Assembly: GCF_000949475.1 (NCBI RefSeq)
Contig: NZ_JRHC01000001.1
Coordinates: forward strand, 1,178,001 to 1,242,000
Direction of reading: 5' to 3'
DNA: 64,000 bases
Source: Draconibacterium sediminis
Lineage (GTDB): Bacteria; Bacteroidota; Bacteroidia; Bacteroidales; Prolixibacteraceae
Below are positions 55,043 through 63,200 of the stretch, in pieces. The translations under genes were made by a program, and so were the position numbers. Position 1 is the stretch's first letter; each line of letters opens with the position of its first letter. Under the pieces are notes generated by a model that did no database searches, was not told the origin of the DNA, and worked only from the letters and a program-made list of their open reading frames with translations.

Positions 55043-55152
55043 ATGATTAAAATTTATCGATTTTAATTTCCCCCTGTCGTCCGTCAGCTGACGGACTCCT
55101 GTCCCCCTGGGGGGACAATCGAATCCCGGTTTGTCGGGATGAGAAGGGGGGA
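55043..55152. repeat. Palindromic repeat in the trpF-trpB gap
   Basis: Contains GTCCGTCAGCTGACGGAC (an 18-bp perfect palindrome), GTCCCCCTGGGGGGAC and ATCCCGG-TTTGTCGGGAT. It has the same word types as 59767-59829, in the same operon. Confidence 0.65.
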
Positions 55153-55779
55153 TCATATTCTGATTTCTTCAATAAAATGTTTTAGTTTTTCAATGTTTTT
55201 TAATCCGGGCTCGTCTTCAAAACCACTGTTCAGATCTACTCCTGCCAGCATCGGATGATTTAACTCTTTTATCTCAGCTACATCATCAGGACCAATTCCG
55301 CCACTTAGAAAAAAGGGTGTATTCCCGGTGTAATTTTCCAGGATCTGCCAGTTGAACTTTTTACCCGAACCACCGTGCTCTTTGGTTTTGGTGTCGAATA
55401 AAAAATAATCCACGTTTTCCTCATAGGCAGCTGTTGTCGCAAATTTAAAATCATCATCCATAGGGAAGGCTTTTAAAACCTGCAGCCCCTGATTTTTTAA
55501 CAATCCACATGTTTTGGGATTTTCCTTGCCATGCAATTGAATGTATTCAAAATCGAAGTTCTTTGCCAGTCCCAGAATTTCAAACGCATTCTCGTTTACA
55601 AAAACACCCACTTTAGGTCTGTCCGATTGAAAGAGTCCGGCATCGGGTGTGTCACCTACAAATCGTTTCGACGGGCCGTAAAAAATATAGCCCAGCAGAT
55701 CAACTCCAAGCGCTTCTACCTGTTCCCGATTTTGGGTGAATTTCATCCCGCAAACTTTTATTTTTAGATTTTTTGTCAT
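55153..55779 (-). CDS. trpF: Phosphoribosylanthranilate isomerase
   Basis: A 208-residue TIM-barrel isomerase, third step of tryptophan synthesis. The catalytic Cys is in KVCGMKF (residue 10), general acid Asp in FLFDTK, and the phosphate-binding loops are FLSGGIGPDD and GVDLNSGFE. It is free-standing, not fused to trpC. Between trpC and trpB. Confidence 0.95.
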   Translation of the reverse strand: MTKNLKIKVCGMKFTQNREQVEALGVDLLGYIFYGPSKRFVGDTPDAGLFQSDRPKVGVFVNENAFEILGLAKNFDFEYIQLHGKENPKTCGLLKNQGLQVLKAFPMDDDFKFATTAAYEENVDYFLFDTKTKEHGGSGKKFNWQILENYTGNTPFFLSGGIGPDDVAEIKELNHPMLAGVDLNSGFEDEPGLKNIEKLKHFIEEIRI

Positions 55780-58320: not shown

Positions 58321-59730
58321 TTAATTAATTCCTTTAGCCATTTCAATAGCTTTTTTCAAAGCAGCCAGTTTGTTATTCACTTCCTGCAATTCACTCTCTT
58401 CCTGCGAATCGGCAACAATACCTGCACCCGCCTGATAAAACAGCTTTTTGTCTTTGCTCAAAAACGAGCGAATCATAATCGCATGGTTCACCGAATTATC
58501 AAAACCAAGATAACCAATACAACCGCCGTAATAACCACGGTTCTGGTTTTCGTATTTGTCGATCAGTTCCATGGCTTTATACTTTGGTGCACCCGAAAGT
58601 GTTCCGGCAGGGAAGGTTTCTCCCAGTACTTTTATCAGGTTGGTATCTGGGGTAATTTCTCCCGAAACCTGCGAAACCAGGTGAATAACATGCGAAAAGA
58701 ATTGTACCTCGCGGTACGTTTCAACAATTACATTATCGGCGTTTCGGCTTAAATCGTTACGGGCAAGATCAACCAACATTACGTGCTCGGCATTTTCTTT
58801 GGGGTCTTTGCTCAGCTTTTCTGCCAGCTCACGATCCTGATCATCATTTCCGGTTCGTTTAAAAGTGCCGGCAATGGGGTGAATGTATGCTTTGTTGTTT
58901 TTAATTCTGATTTCAGCCTCAGGACTCGATCCGAAAATACTGTAAGTCCCATAATCAAAATAGAACAGGTAAGGCGATGGATTTATTGAACGAAGTGCGC
59001 GATACACATTAAAATCGTCGCCAACAAATTCCTGCGAGAACTGGCGGCTCAAAACGATTTGGAAAACATCGCCACGGTAGCAGTGCTCTTTGCCTTTGGT
59101 TACCATGTGCATGTATTCTTCATCAGTGATATTCGATTTTTCTTCGCCGCGGACATCGAAACTTGCCGTTGAGAAGTTGAGGTTCACCAACAAGTGATGC
59201 ACGTAATCCATTTGCGACTCTTCGCCTTCCAACAAGTTTTCTACAATGTGGATCTGGTTTTTGTGGTGATCGATGGCAACTACATATTTGTAAAAGCTGT
59301 AATGTACTTCCGGCGTTTGGTATTCTGCGGTTTTTGGCGACGAAAAACGAATGCTTTCGAAATGTTGAATGGCATCGAAATTCAGGTAGCCAAATAAACC
59401 GTTGGCCGGCAATTCAATTTCATCCGAATCAACATTAAATGTTTTGAAGAACTTGTCCAGCTCATCGTGCAATTTCTTTTCGGGAGAAAGGCCAAAGTTT
59501 TCTTGCGCACGGCCCGGCAAATCGATGCCAACCTCGCCGTTTGTGACTTTAAAATTGGCAATTGGGTTAAAAGCAATAAATGAGTAAGCATTTTCAACTC
59601 CGTGGTAATCGGAGCTTTCCAGCAATATCGACTTAGGATAAAGCGTGCGAAGTCGTAAATAAATGCTAACCGGAGTTACGGTGTCGGCAAGTATTTTACG
59701 TACGACAGGTTTAAAATTGAGTTTTTCCAT
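58321..59730 (-). CDS. trpE: Anthranilate synthase component I
   Basis: A 469-residue chorismate-utilising enzyme that makes anthranilate with TrpG. The C-terminal catalytic domain shows the PIAGTFKRTG and HVMLVDLARNDLSR motifs, and ETFPAGTLSGAPKYKAMELID. The N-terminal LLESSDYHGVENAYSFIAF carries the tryptophan-feedback LLES element. It is the first structural gene of the operon; the leader upstream carries trpL and an attenuator. Confidence 0.96.
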   Translation of the reverse strand: MEKLNFKPVVRKILADTVTPVSIYLRLRTLYPKSILLESSDYHGVENAYSFIAFNPIANFKVTNGEVGIDLPGRAQENFGLSPEKKLHDELDKFFKTFNVDSDEIELPANGLFGYLNFDAIQHFESIRFSSPKTAEYQTPEVHYSFYKYVVAIDHHKNQIHIVENLLEGEESQMDYVHHLLVNLNFSTASFDVRGEEKSNITDEEYMHMVTKGKEHCYRGDVFQIVLSRQFSQEFVGDDFNVYRALRSINPSPYLFYFDYGTYSIFGSSPEAEIRIKNNKAYIHPIAGTFKRTGNDDQDRELAEKLSKDPKENAEHVMLVDLARNDLSRNADNVIVETYREVQFFSHVIHLVSQVSGEITPDTNLIKVLGETFPAGTLSGAPKYKAMELIDKYENQNRGYYGGCIGYLGFDNSVNHAIMIRSFLSKDKKLFYQAGAGIVADSQEESELQEVNNKLAALKKAIEMAKGIN

Positions 59731-59766
59731 TTTGTTTTTTATGTTTTGTTCTTTGTTTATTTTTTT

Positions 59767-59829
59767 GCCCCCCTTTATCCCCCGAAGGGGGAAATTTCCT
59801 CTCCGCCAACTGGCGGACGGTCAGGAGGG
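59767..59829. repeat. Palindromic repeat in the trp leader downstream of the attenuator
   Basis: Contains CCCCCGAAGGGGG and TCCGCCAACTGGCGGA palindromes, related in word type to 55043-55152. It lies between the attenuator and the trpE start, so it is transcribed in the trp mRNA leader. Confidence 0.65.
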
Positions 59830-59854
59830 GTGTTGTTATATTCTGGCTAAAACT

Positions 59855-59886
59855 AAAAACGGCTCACCGTGAAATCCGATGAGCCG
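59855..59886 (-). terminator. trp attenuator terminator
   Basis: On the minus strand a 10-bp stem CGGCTCATCG/CGGTGAGCCG (59886-59877 with 59869-59860, one T-G wobble) with loop GATTTCA is followed by TTTTT. It lies 31 bases after the trpL stop and 124 bases before trpE, as expected of an attenuator. The 3' arm can alternatively pair with 59917-59924. Confidence 0.85.
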
Positions 59887-59917
59887 CTTTTAATTTATGC
59901 AATGACGTATCCTCTCT

Positions 59918-59974
59918 TCACGATATTTGTAAAAAGTTGCTATGCCACCACCAAATGTTATTGTTTGTTCTCAT
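59918..59974 (-). CDS. trpL: trp operon leader peptide (TrpL)
   Basis: An 18-residue ORF MRTNNNIWWWHSNFLQIS ending in TGA, with three consecutive Trp codons (59945-59953). Its position directly upstream of a terminator and trpE makes it a tryptophan leader peptide. Its 3' end and stop codon (59917-59924, ATCGTGAA) can pair over eight bases with TTCACGGT in the terminator (59866-59873). Ribosomes stalled at the Trp codons would leave this pairing free and let transcription continue. It is too short for ordinary ORF calling; there is no strong Shine-Dalgarno site. Confidence 0.88.
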   Translation of the reverse strand: MRTNNNIWWWHSNFLQIS

Positions 59975-59993
59975 AATAATTTATCTATTAAAC

Positions 59994-60021
59994 AAAAAAA
60001 CCTGCTTTTGTTAGAAGCAGG
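59994..60021 (-). terminator. Intrinsic terminator upstream of trpL
   Basis: On the minus strand CCTGCTT/AAGCAGG (60021-60015 with 60007-60001) with loop CTAACAA, followed by seven T residues (60000-59994). It lies between sprA and trpL. It may end sprA transcription or be an extra control point in the trp leader. Confidence 0.85.
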
Positions 60022-60043
60022 CCTGTCATATCTTTAAAAATAG

Positions 60044-60101
60044 CAATATGGCTCTTAACTCCTAACTTACGTAAGAAGACCCCACCACGGAAGCCATATT
60101 G
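60044..60101 (-). other. Long-range stem near sprA end, possible structured leader RNA
   Basis: CAATATGGCT (60044-60053) pairs perfectly with AGCCATATTG (60092-60101), closing a 38-base loop that contains the self-complementary CTTACGTAAG. It precedes the terminator at 59994. A minus ORF of 11 codons (60062-60097, MASVVGSSYVS) lies inside; no ribosome site supports it. Confidence 0.45.
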
Positions 60102-60222
60102 TATTTATTTTTTGCATTTTTTAATTTTAATCTTCTGCAAGAAAAACGTTTTTTTTGAAATATCAAAATATTGTTGACAGAAGCTTCAAAAAACTATTTC
60201 TCAAATAAAGTTGGTTTAACAA

Positions 60223-63200
60223 TTAGTTAGCCAGGGTGAAACGGAAACTCACACCAAAATTAGCATTGGTTGTACGGTATGATAGCGAAGTAAACGGATC
60301 ATTAATAATACGATCGTAATAAACACGCATTTCAAATTTATCACTCAAACGGTAGTCGGCATAGGTTTTTAAGGTAAAGTTACCTTGTCCTGCCGTAATC
60401 TGGTTGCTGTCATCGTCTAATTGGCGTAAAATTGTTTTTGTTTTACGGTACGAAATATCAGCGCGAACATTCAGATCGTTCGAGTAAGCCTGTTGCGAAT
60501 TTTTTGTTTTAATAATCAAATCCATTCGTGTAAATCGATAGCCTAATCCTATAGTATATTCATTGCTCAGAATTTCGGTTAGCTGGTTGTTCGATAACGA
60601 CAGGTTTAGGTTGCGTGAACGTTTGATATCTCCACGTGTAGTCAGGTCGCTTAGCCACATAATGTCGATATTAATCAGCGGGTTGAAAGCTTCAACAATA
60701 CTCACGCTATTAAAATCGTAGGCCGGAACAAAGTTGTCGGCCAGGTCGCGCACCATGGTGTAGCCATCTTCGGCAGCAATAAAATTCAGGTTGGTGGCGT
60801 ACGAACCAACGTTGTAGCTTGAACGGTAGGCATGTTGGAAATTCAACGAACGCATTACTTTATTCAGGCCCGGAATTCGCGAAACCATTCCTTCGTAACG
60901 AATACTCCAGTTCGGACGGATATATTTTAATGACGGGAACATTCCCAGGCTAACCTTTTCCGGATCTTTACCTTGATATGCCGCAAGGAATGCCGGAACA
61001 AGAACTTCCACCGAGTTTGGTCCGTAACCATCGGGGTATCCCGGATAGTTTTCGTTCGGAGCATTCGGATCATAACCTGCACTTGTGCCACGCTGTTGAG
61101 CCAGACGTCTGGCTATAGTGAGGCGGTTCTCTTTCATTTTTTCGAAAGCATCAGAGCTGGTTACTTCTTCTTTTCCTATTTTAAAGAAGGCAGTTCCCAA
61201 TGTTAGTGTCGACATACTAAAGTTTCCGCTTTCGGAATAGCTGTTGGCAACAAAACTACCGGAGTTTGTATCGTAATTGTAGAACTCAGTAATATTTTTC
61301 GATATCGAGCGGTTGGCATTGATGTCAATTCGCAAATCGGGCAGCGGTTCCCACAATGTACGCAAATTAATCCGCTCGTTTTCCATAATCTGGAACGGTT
61401 GATTTAACGTTGAGTCGATGGTTAGCCAGCCATTTTCTGCCGCTTTTAATGCAAAGTCGCGGTCTTGCCAGCCAAATAGGAATGGAAGTCCCGGAGCCAG
61501 CTTCGGATCGGGTATTTGCGTTCCCCATTGCGGATCGCCATTAAATTTACCTGTTCCAAACAATGTTGGTTCAGGCAGGAAGCCCGGCAAAACAGTACCT
61601 CCGTTTTTGCTGTAGTTCACCGTGAATGTACGCACTCCAATCACCATTCTTGTGGTCAGGTCCAACATGTCTTTCATGAATGACTGATCGCCCCGTTTTC
61701 CTGTAACGGTAAGCATGGCCTGCTGCACATCAACCGATGGAACAAACTCGATGGTATTGGCATCAATAATATTAGTTCGTCCCGGAACAGTTTTCCCGTT
61801 CACATCAGTAACCAGAACTTTTACTTTTTTGGTATTTAGCTTGTGGGCAAATTGCTGGCCCTGATCGGCCGTAAATCTTGCACTTCGGCTAAACGTTTCT
61901 TCCTGTTTTCGTTGCAGTGGTTCGGTTTGCTGGTTTGTTCTTCCTCGTGTACTCCGGCTGTTGAGGCTGCCACGCCCGCGACCTGTTCGTCTGAATTTCT
62001 GGTCGACCTCTTTAAAATAAGGCACCTTGTTAAACAGGGTTTGGAAATTAGCATTACCGGTAAGCGTAAGGTTGCGCGAGTTGGTAATTATGTTTCCAAT
62101 GTTAATGTCATCGTCGGTTAACGATCCGGCTATCCACTCGTAAGTTCCCGAATAGCGAACAGTTCCGCTCATAAAATTTAATGCACGGATACTCCGGAGT
62201 GGCACCTGGTAAGTGGCATTAAAACTGTGATTGTATATTGTTGGCCGTCCTAAATCCCAGAGGTTGGTAAGAATCGAATCGCGTTTCCATTCGTAATCGT
62301 CGTCGTTTTTATTAATCCGTCCTTCGGGTTCATCAATTCGTGAAGTACCGCGTGATGAGAAATCGAACTTCAATGACCGGGTAACATCGTAACGGATATC
62401 GAGGTAACGGTTCCAAAGGAAATCCTTATCGAAAGTAGCCGGCAGAATCAGGTTCGGATTGGTAATATTCCGTGACTGGCGCTCGTGGTACTTACGGAAG
62501 AGATCGGTACGATATGAAATTTGTGTTGGCAGCGGATAGAAATTAAAGTCGCCAATTAATTTTAAAGGCCCCTTTTGCAGCAGCTGAACTTTGCTAAATG
62601 GCTGAATCAATTTTGGCCGGCTGCTGTAATTGTACGAGAACATAAAACGGTGCGTTCTGTTCACGTTGTACTCCGTTGTAATGTTTCGTTTCGATGTTTC
62701 GTTGTAAGAATAGGTAACGGCAAAATTTTCCGGATCCCACAAATGTGTTTTCTCTTTCTGGCGCTGTGGTTCCACTTTTACGTTGGTAAAGTTGAGGCTT
62801 TTTCGTTCAATCACATCCTGCGATATGTTTTTTATCGAATCCTTCTCGCTGCCGGTTCGGGCATGCGATAGTGATTCTTTTAACTCGATATCCGGATTTA
62901 CCGGGTCGTATTTTGGTGTTGCTGTACTGTTGGAGTAACCGTAGTACATCGGAATCCGAACACCGGCCCGTTCAGGGAAGAAGCGACCCCAGTCTATTGA
63001 TGCCGACACATCGATTTCATCCAGGTCGTCTATCATCCTGTTGTTAATATTCTCATCAATACTTCCGAAACCCGCAGTACGTTTGCGCCCGGCAACCACC
63101 ACGCTACCCAGGTCGGCTAAACGTGTTGAAACACGTGCATTAGCTGCCCATCCGCCTTCATCGTCAAAATCGGTAAGGCGTAATTCGTTCGCCCAAACAA

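Follow-up and report, generated by a model that had tools for sequence, protein, structure and literature searches.

The trp operon of Draconibacterium sediminis is very probably controlled by two ribosome-mediated attenuators arranged in series, both of which would read charged tRNA-Trp, a mechanism that is well supported by sequence. Direct support comes from the anatomy of the region, its conservation, covariation and predicted alternative folds. An earlier note had described the downstream unit as a ribosome-mediated Trp attenuator ahead of trpE, a reading that the sequence bears out, except that the unit does not stand alone but is the second of two, preceded by a further Trp leader with three Trp codons and its own pause stem, antiterminator and terminator. 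Scanning both strands of the window (the whole 64-kb stretch of DNA analysed) for short ORFs that contain a cluster of Trp codons and are followed within 80 nt by a terminator returned exactly two units, each lying upstream of trpE. Dinucleotide shuffles of 59731-60222 yielded at least one unit in 1 of 1000 cases and two units in 0 of 1000, and since shuffles of the region almost never give them, the two units are not a product of chance. The features, in order along the minus strand, are as follows.

60138..60167, minus strand: promoter-like pair, TTTG (60167-60164) and TTTTCTTG (60145-60138) 18 nt apart, 20 nt before the leader-1 ATG
60067..60117, minus strand: leader 1 ORF, MQKINTIWLPWWGLLT and stop, Trp at codons 8, 11 and 12, near-identical in 25 genus sequences
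60044..60101, minus strand: stem P1, CAATATGGC (60101-60093) with GCCATATTG (60052-60044), enclosing the Trp codons and an inner hairpin
60059..60066, minus strand: region 2 of attenuator 1, GTTAGGAG, the 5′ strand of the antiterminator directly after the stop codon, pairing with 60017-60010
60010..60017, minus strand: 3′ strand of antiterminator 1, CTTCTAAC, comprising the end of the terminator-1 5′ arm and the loop (from covariation and folds)
59994..60024, minus strand: terminator 1, AGGCCTGCTT-CTAACAA-AAGCAGGTTT and T run (from a terminator scan and conservation)
59918..59974, minus strand: leader 2 ORF, MRTNNNIWWWHSNFLQIS and stop, Trp at codons 8-10, the leader of the earlier note
59914..59936, minus strand: pause hairpin 1:2 of attenuator 2, CTTTTTAC (59936-59929) with GTGAAGAG (59921-59914)
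59917..59924, minus strand: region 2 of attenuator 2, ATCGTGAA, the 5′ strand of the antiterminator, overlapping the stop codon
59866..59873, minus strand: 3′ strand of antiterminator 2, TTCACGGT, comprising the terminator loop and the top of the 3′ arm (from covariation, swaps and folds)
59855..59886, minus strand: terminator 2, CGGCTCATCG-GATTTCA-CGGTGAGCCG and T run (from folding and pairing in genus sequences)
59757..59839, minus strand: dispersed repeat carrying two GC-rich hairpins, located between terminator 2 and trpE
58321..59730, minus strand: trpE, anthranilate synthase component I, first gene of the operon (Pfam PF00425 and PF04715)

Anatomy of the two units and their surroundings

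The elements that the earlier note had assigned to the downstream unit were recovered as described. Leader 2 reads 18 codons and a TGA on the minus strand (59974-59918) ahead of trpE, with three adjacent TGG codons at 59953-59945, and its stop lies 31 bases before the terminator-2 stem, which consists of 10 bp (59886-59877 with 59869-59860) followed by five T (59859-59855). The eight-base pairing between 59924-59917 and 59873-59866 is likewise present, one of its pairs being G-U. The sequence 59850-59990 folded far better than its shuffles (z −7.2), and 59992-60130, which holds unit 1, did so less strongly (z −3.2). Region 59924-59914 combines three roles, as partner in the pause hairpin, as the stop site covered by the ribosome and as a strand of the antiterminator. 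The classical 2:3 pairing of region 2 with the 5′ arm was considered for unit 2 and set aside, as the best helix joined region 2 to the loop and 3′ arm in most loci, if not in all.

Scored against TTTG, TAnnTTTG, which we take to be the Bacteroidota promoter consensus, the promoter-like pair before leader 1 has two mismatches and is weak evidence alone. The best match lay 18-21 nt before the leader-1 ATG in 24 of the 33 tandem genus loci, and of the 51 tandem loci, 46 had a site with at most two mismatches ahead of leader 1 and 4 had one ahead of leader 2, compared with 33% of shuffles; a sigma-70 promoter scan gave no match. The gap from terminator 1 to leader 2, ~20 nt in the window, had a median of 21 nt across the 51 tandem loci (range −39 to 636, negative values marking cases in which the scan took an upstream ATG). 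Such a short gap leaves little room for a second promoter, and one transcript through both gates is the simplest reading. At two loci from two genera (L034 and L109), a nucleotidyltransferase and HepT-like gene pair, assigned by Pfam on L109 only and by likeness on L034, where the second ORF is shorter, lies between terminator 1 and leader 2 and separates the units by ~630 nt.

The trp genes downstream of trpE were named by reading their ORFs. The dispersed repeat at 59757-59839 has six partial matches (36-83 bases) elsewhere in the genome and is missing from most of the 27 aligned genus loci; it is probably an insertion, outside the switch. At the trpF-trpB junction (55043-55156), another GC-rich hairpin stretch, CCGTCAGCTGACGG, falls within a 5′-extended part of the trpB ORF; translation of trpB probably begins at a later ATG, before KYQVDEKGYYG.

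Covariation and conservation of the tandem

The check that the earlier note had proposed, a comparison of related trpE leaders, found that the Trp codons and the pairing of unit 2 are both kept across relatives, and the pairing of the stop-codon region with the loop and 3′ arm of terminator 2 covaries. This antiterminator was paired in 92.6% of cells, with seven double-change cells in two pairs, and 0 of 500 shuffles equalled it on cells paired, double-change cells or covariation score; shuffles reached its number of double-change pairs in 13 of 500 and its number of pair types in 498 of 500. The unit 1 antiterminator was paired in 88.5% of cells with six double-change cells, again equalled on cells paired, double-change cells and score by 0 of 500 shuffles, which matched its pair types in 2 of 500 and its double-change pairs, in this respect unexceptional, in 99 of 500. 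Terminator 2 was 100% paired with three double-change pairs in 27 genus sequences, and terminator 1, of which seven inner pairs were counted, was 100% paired in 25. P1 was invariant and 100% paired in 25 genus sequences, making it uninformative on covariation; a stem at its place was predicted in the minimum-energy structure for the majority of 31 sequences (6 from the genus, 25 from elsewhere in the family), L138 being an exception. The pause hairpin of unit 2, with 99.5% of cells paired in the inner helix and 96.3% in the outer, showed one-sided changes only, no better than shuffles, and thus gains no support from covariation.

Across genera, the antiterminator helices of both units were rewritten on both sides, as in ATCGTAAA with TTTACGAT (L040), ACCGTGA with TCACGGT, and TCGGAAGTT with AACTTCCGA (L125). 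Swapping terminators between lineages, which are not fully independent, worsened antiterminator pairing on average: for unit 1 (17 hand-picked lineages), 0 of 20000 permutations were as good, and for unit 2 (27 lineages), 27 of 20000 did as well in helix score, and 4 of 20000 in duplex energy. The unit-2 helix was weak or not the best match in L104, L106, L116, L122 and L127, and the unit-1 helix in L104.

The tandem arrangement is conserved in the genus, taken here as Draconibacterium/Maribellus, in which 37 searched genomes gave 36 trpE loci (L008-L043), genome G015 having a weak match only. Both leaders and both terminators were present at 33 of the 36 loci. A single unit was found at L040, whose genome has a unit-1 match on a different contig, and at L043, which has a divergent trpE; the one remaining locus, L032, has almost no upstream sequence. 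Among 40 family loci, chosen from covariance-model matches and not at random, 18 carried both leaders and terminators, 17 carried one unit and five none, so that 51 of the 76 scanned genus and family loci were tandem, 19 single and six without a unit. Tandem loci occurred in 10 of 23 family genera (g1, g2, g3, g5, g6, g7, g9, g10, g15 and g18). Covariance models built from the genus, whose members make up 21 of the 120 family genomes, matched 81 of the 120 in 15 of 23 genera for unit 1, and 97 in 22 of 23 genera for unit 2; second matches on the opposite strand at the terminators look like self-complementary matches and were disregarded. NCBI taxonomy places Draconibacterium in the family Prolixibacteraceae, order Marinilabiliales, class Bacteroidia, and the order and class of our surveys follow a GTDB-based scheme instead.

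Searching named records for an exact pattern of the unit-1 core gave 58 matching stretches, including ones from Draconibacterium, Maribellus, Mariniphaga, Sunxiuqinia, Mangrovibacterium and Gaoshiqia. The pattern was also seen in records named Anaerovibrio, Clostridiales, Paraprevotella, Chitinophaga and others (L150, L160, L163, L168, L173, L188 and L196), which may reflect chance, contamination or misnamed bins.

Within the genus, the leader 1 peptide is nearly invariant, more so than that of leader 2, which would fit an arrest peptide whose IWLPWWGLL nascent chain stalls on free Trp or another ligand instead of sensing tRNA codon by codon. Other genera, however, carry WLWWG, WSWWQ, WSWWR or WLWWWG, in which Trp is kept and the rest is not, and P1 and the inner hairpin partly explain the nucleotide conservation. 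We therefore consider an arrest peptide highly improbable and favor codon-wise reading of charged tRNA-Trp.

At six family loci, the unit-1 core (P1, the CTTCCGTGGTGGGG strand and the inner hairpin) is almost unchanged in sequence while terminator 1 is absent (L110, L114, L115, L134, L135 and L136; five from genera g14, g21 and g23, one from g18), and two gates are thus not indispensable. Five of the six have no ATG, GTG or TTG to open the Trp frame ahead of its first TGG, and in L135 the frame is opened only by an ATG 30 codons upstream; for g14, g21 and g23, the search for a non-ATG start of unit 1 gave no firm candidate. A different frame, from an ATG inside P1, reads into leader 2 in L114, L135, L136 and, in another genus, L132 (46 codons each), and stops early in L110, L115, L134 and L117. 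Because the core persists without terminator 1 and mostly without a start codon, we keep open a role beyond classical attenuation: that it is a structured RNA with its own job beyond the Trp codons and terminator is unlikely but deserves some weight, and such a job could be to bind a factor or ligand, or to direct ribosomes to leader 2.

The same six loci, together with the position of terminator 1 ~200 nt after the end of the upstream SprA-like gene (at 60223), as could be the case for an ordinary gene-end terminator, would suit a reading in which only the downstream unit attenuates trpE, terminator 1 is the end of that gene and leader 1 is a chance ORF. Given that the Trp codons and the covarying antiterminator of leader 1 are kept far beyond the genus, and that a promoter-like site is commoner before leader 1 than before leader 2, we judge this very unlikely and retain two attenuators in series. 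Terminator 1 as part of the upstream gene was set aside on grounds of conservation.

Predicted folding and the proposed series mechanism

To follow the alternative structures by ribosome position, we folded the RNA left free by the ribosome, on the assumption that the RNA becomes free 15 nt past the first nucleotide of the A-site codon. In unit 1, with a ribosome stalled at Trp11/12, the predicted antiterminator probability was 0.99-1.00 until the terminator was nearly complete, and with the ribosome at the stop codon, the terminator reached 0.96-0.98. The terminator was also predicted to form without a ribosome, and termination was predicted for a stall at Trp8, where the inner hairpin re-forms. 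At full length, unit 1 was merely balanced (antiterminator 0.40-0.53). In unit 2, a stall at Trp9/10 gave an antiterminator probability of 0.95-0.98 while the 3′ arm emerged, but at full length, terminator 2 won in every ribosome state, so that gate 2 needs kinetic trapping. The earlier note's reading is incomplete on this point: with the leader omitted, the antiterminator does not win at equilibrium, because the complete terminator 2 is far more stable, and the switch of unit 2 must therefore be kinetic. The models thus predict that unit 1 switches near equilibrium and unit 2 only by timing.

The pair carries the marks of attenuation, namely clustered codons for the regulated amino acid (three TGG per leader, kept in relatives), two predicted and conserved terminators between the leaders and the first structural gene and, judging by the sequence, antiterminators that exclude the terminator and are uncovered by a stalled ribosome only, an exclusion that in unit 2 holds only during transcription and not at equilibrium. 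From these features, we infer the transcription start, stalling, termination and the multiplicative effect of the gates. A single transcript would begin upstream of leader 1. When Trp-tRNA is low, the ribosome would stall at Trp11/12 of leader 1, opening P1 and the inner hairpin and freeing GTTAGGAG, which would pair with the end of the 5′ arm and the loop of terminator 1 and let the polymerase continue. Leader 2 would repeat the test ~20 nt on, where a ribosome stalled at WWW would free the stop-codon region to grab the loop and the top of the 3′ arm of the emerging terminator 2. With ample Trp, or no translation, both terminators would form. As RNA polymerase would have to pass both gates, leak would multiply down and induction would be steeper than with one gate, as in a double lock.

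Distribution and comparison with known attenuators

The earlier note had held a complete Trp leader with antiterminator to be rarely annotated in Bacteroidota, a view not borne out by the survey of other trpE upstream regions, in which the same architecture was present in 33 of 54 from the order and 27 of 34 from the class, nor by the existence of an Rfam family of Bacteroidetes Trp leaders (RF01692). Together, 60 of these 88 regions carried at least one unit and three carried two. In the order (54 regions, one belonging to the same family), 30 had one unit, three had two and 21 had none, with units in 1 of 54 reverse complements and 0 of 324 shuffles; in the class (34 further regions, one of the same order and two only ~300 bases long), 27 had one, none had two and seven had none, the control giving 0. 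A class-wide tandem pattern was thus found in 0 of 34 regions. The unit-1 model matched 1 of 149 order genomes, only the window's own, and the unit-2 model 42 of 149. Operons starting with trpB escape a trpE survey, and RF01692 matches show such cases. A single Trp leader with terminator precedes a trpB-like ORF, named by reading, in L127 of the family and in L202, L203, L205, L206, L207, L209, L210, L211 and L241 of the order. Single Trp leaders with terminators are ordinary, and the unit of the earlier note, taken by itself, would belong to an established type.

Two Trp leaders with terminators ahead of trpE were also observed in L254, L276 and L287, from three other families of the order, which suggests that tandem units arose more than once. 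Between 6 and 15 of 500 shuffles reached the best helices of both L254 units and of L276 unit 1, compared with 108 to 129 of 500 for L276 unit 2 and both L287 units, which makes the three loci weaker tandem cases with only partly convincing antiterminators.

That a single unit is enough in most class-level regions (of 34, 27 are single, 7 have none and 0 are tandem), and that some family genera are without terminator 1, could also mean that the tandem is a duplicated attenuator in decay, with one unit still responsive. The Trp codons and covarying helices of both units are, however, constrained in the same genomes, which leaves decaying redundancy quite unlikely and favors two working gates.

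In the E. coli trpL attenuator, Trp codons in the leader peptide are coupled to pause, antiterminator and terminator structures by the same logic as in the window, and the antiterminator of the classical trp scheme pairs with the terminator 5′ arm. The window differs in having two units in series and in placing the antiterminator of attenuator 2 on the loop and 3′ arm.

The known relative is RF01692, the Bacteroid-trp leader RNA (Weinberg et al. 2010, PMC2864571), a Bacteroidetes Trp leader whose matched loci have, like the window, clustered Trp codons and a terminator before trpB-like or trpE-like genes. Unlike the window, each of the 11 order-level loci scanned showed, on the matched strand, a single unit or none that was clearly in tandem. 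In the window, RF01692 scored 27.8 bits at unit 1, below its cut-off of 49, with no match to unit 2 among those listed, and RF00513 (Trp_leader) scored 25.2 bits (E 0.0071) against a cut-off of 41 at unit 1 only; at the gathering threshold, Rfam found two tRNAs only. Weak Rfam matches near the element (RUF1, GibS, Thr_leader and others) were judged to be chance. Seven of 149 order genomes reached the RF01692 cut-off, as did 1 of 20 family loci, and among 20 further unit-carrying loci (19 from the order, one from the class) none did. The RF01692 match at L125 (G057; 49.8 bits) overlaps a unit-2 model match (E 2e-4), and on G252:C11, RF01692 and the unit-2 model (E 3.4e-8) match one place.

Among tandem systems, the Salmonella mgtCBR leader mRNA is described as having two leader ORFs and tandem attenuators that sense different signals, ATP and proline, and as differing from the metE leader with its two terminator sites (PMC3641672); the window differs in that both units have Trp codons, each with its own terminator. 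In mefA/msrD, two leader peptides for the same signal are reported to form a 'double lock' for msrD, mefAL controlling mefA and msrD, and msrDL msrD alone, in antibiotic sensing (PMC10314930), whereas in the window the operon serves an amino acid and both leaders precede its first gene. Tandem glycine riboswitches, described as common, place two sensors of one ligand before one operon (PMC3766115); these are ligand-binding RNAs and not translation-coupled, unlike the units in the window. In the open-access literature, to which the search was confined, the matches listed included neither a tandem attenuator for an amino acid nor a description of this family. We thus regard the tandem arrangement as a new variant, a single Trp attenuator and the Bacteroidetes Trp leader being already known.

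Taken as a whole, the survey suggests that in the sample from class Bacteroidia trpE is usually preceded by a translation-coupled Trp attenuator, although the existing RNA family model misses most cases. Textbook attenuation has one gate per operon; here, a conserved pair of gates would answer the same signal. With gates that differ in their predicted switching, the pair may offer a natural system in which to ask whether stacked attenuators sharpen the response and cut leak, as has been suggested for the double lock of msrD.
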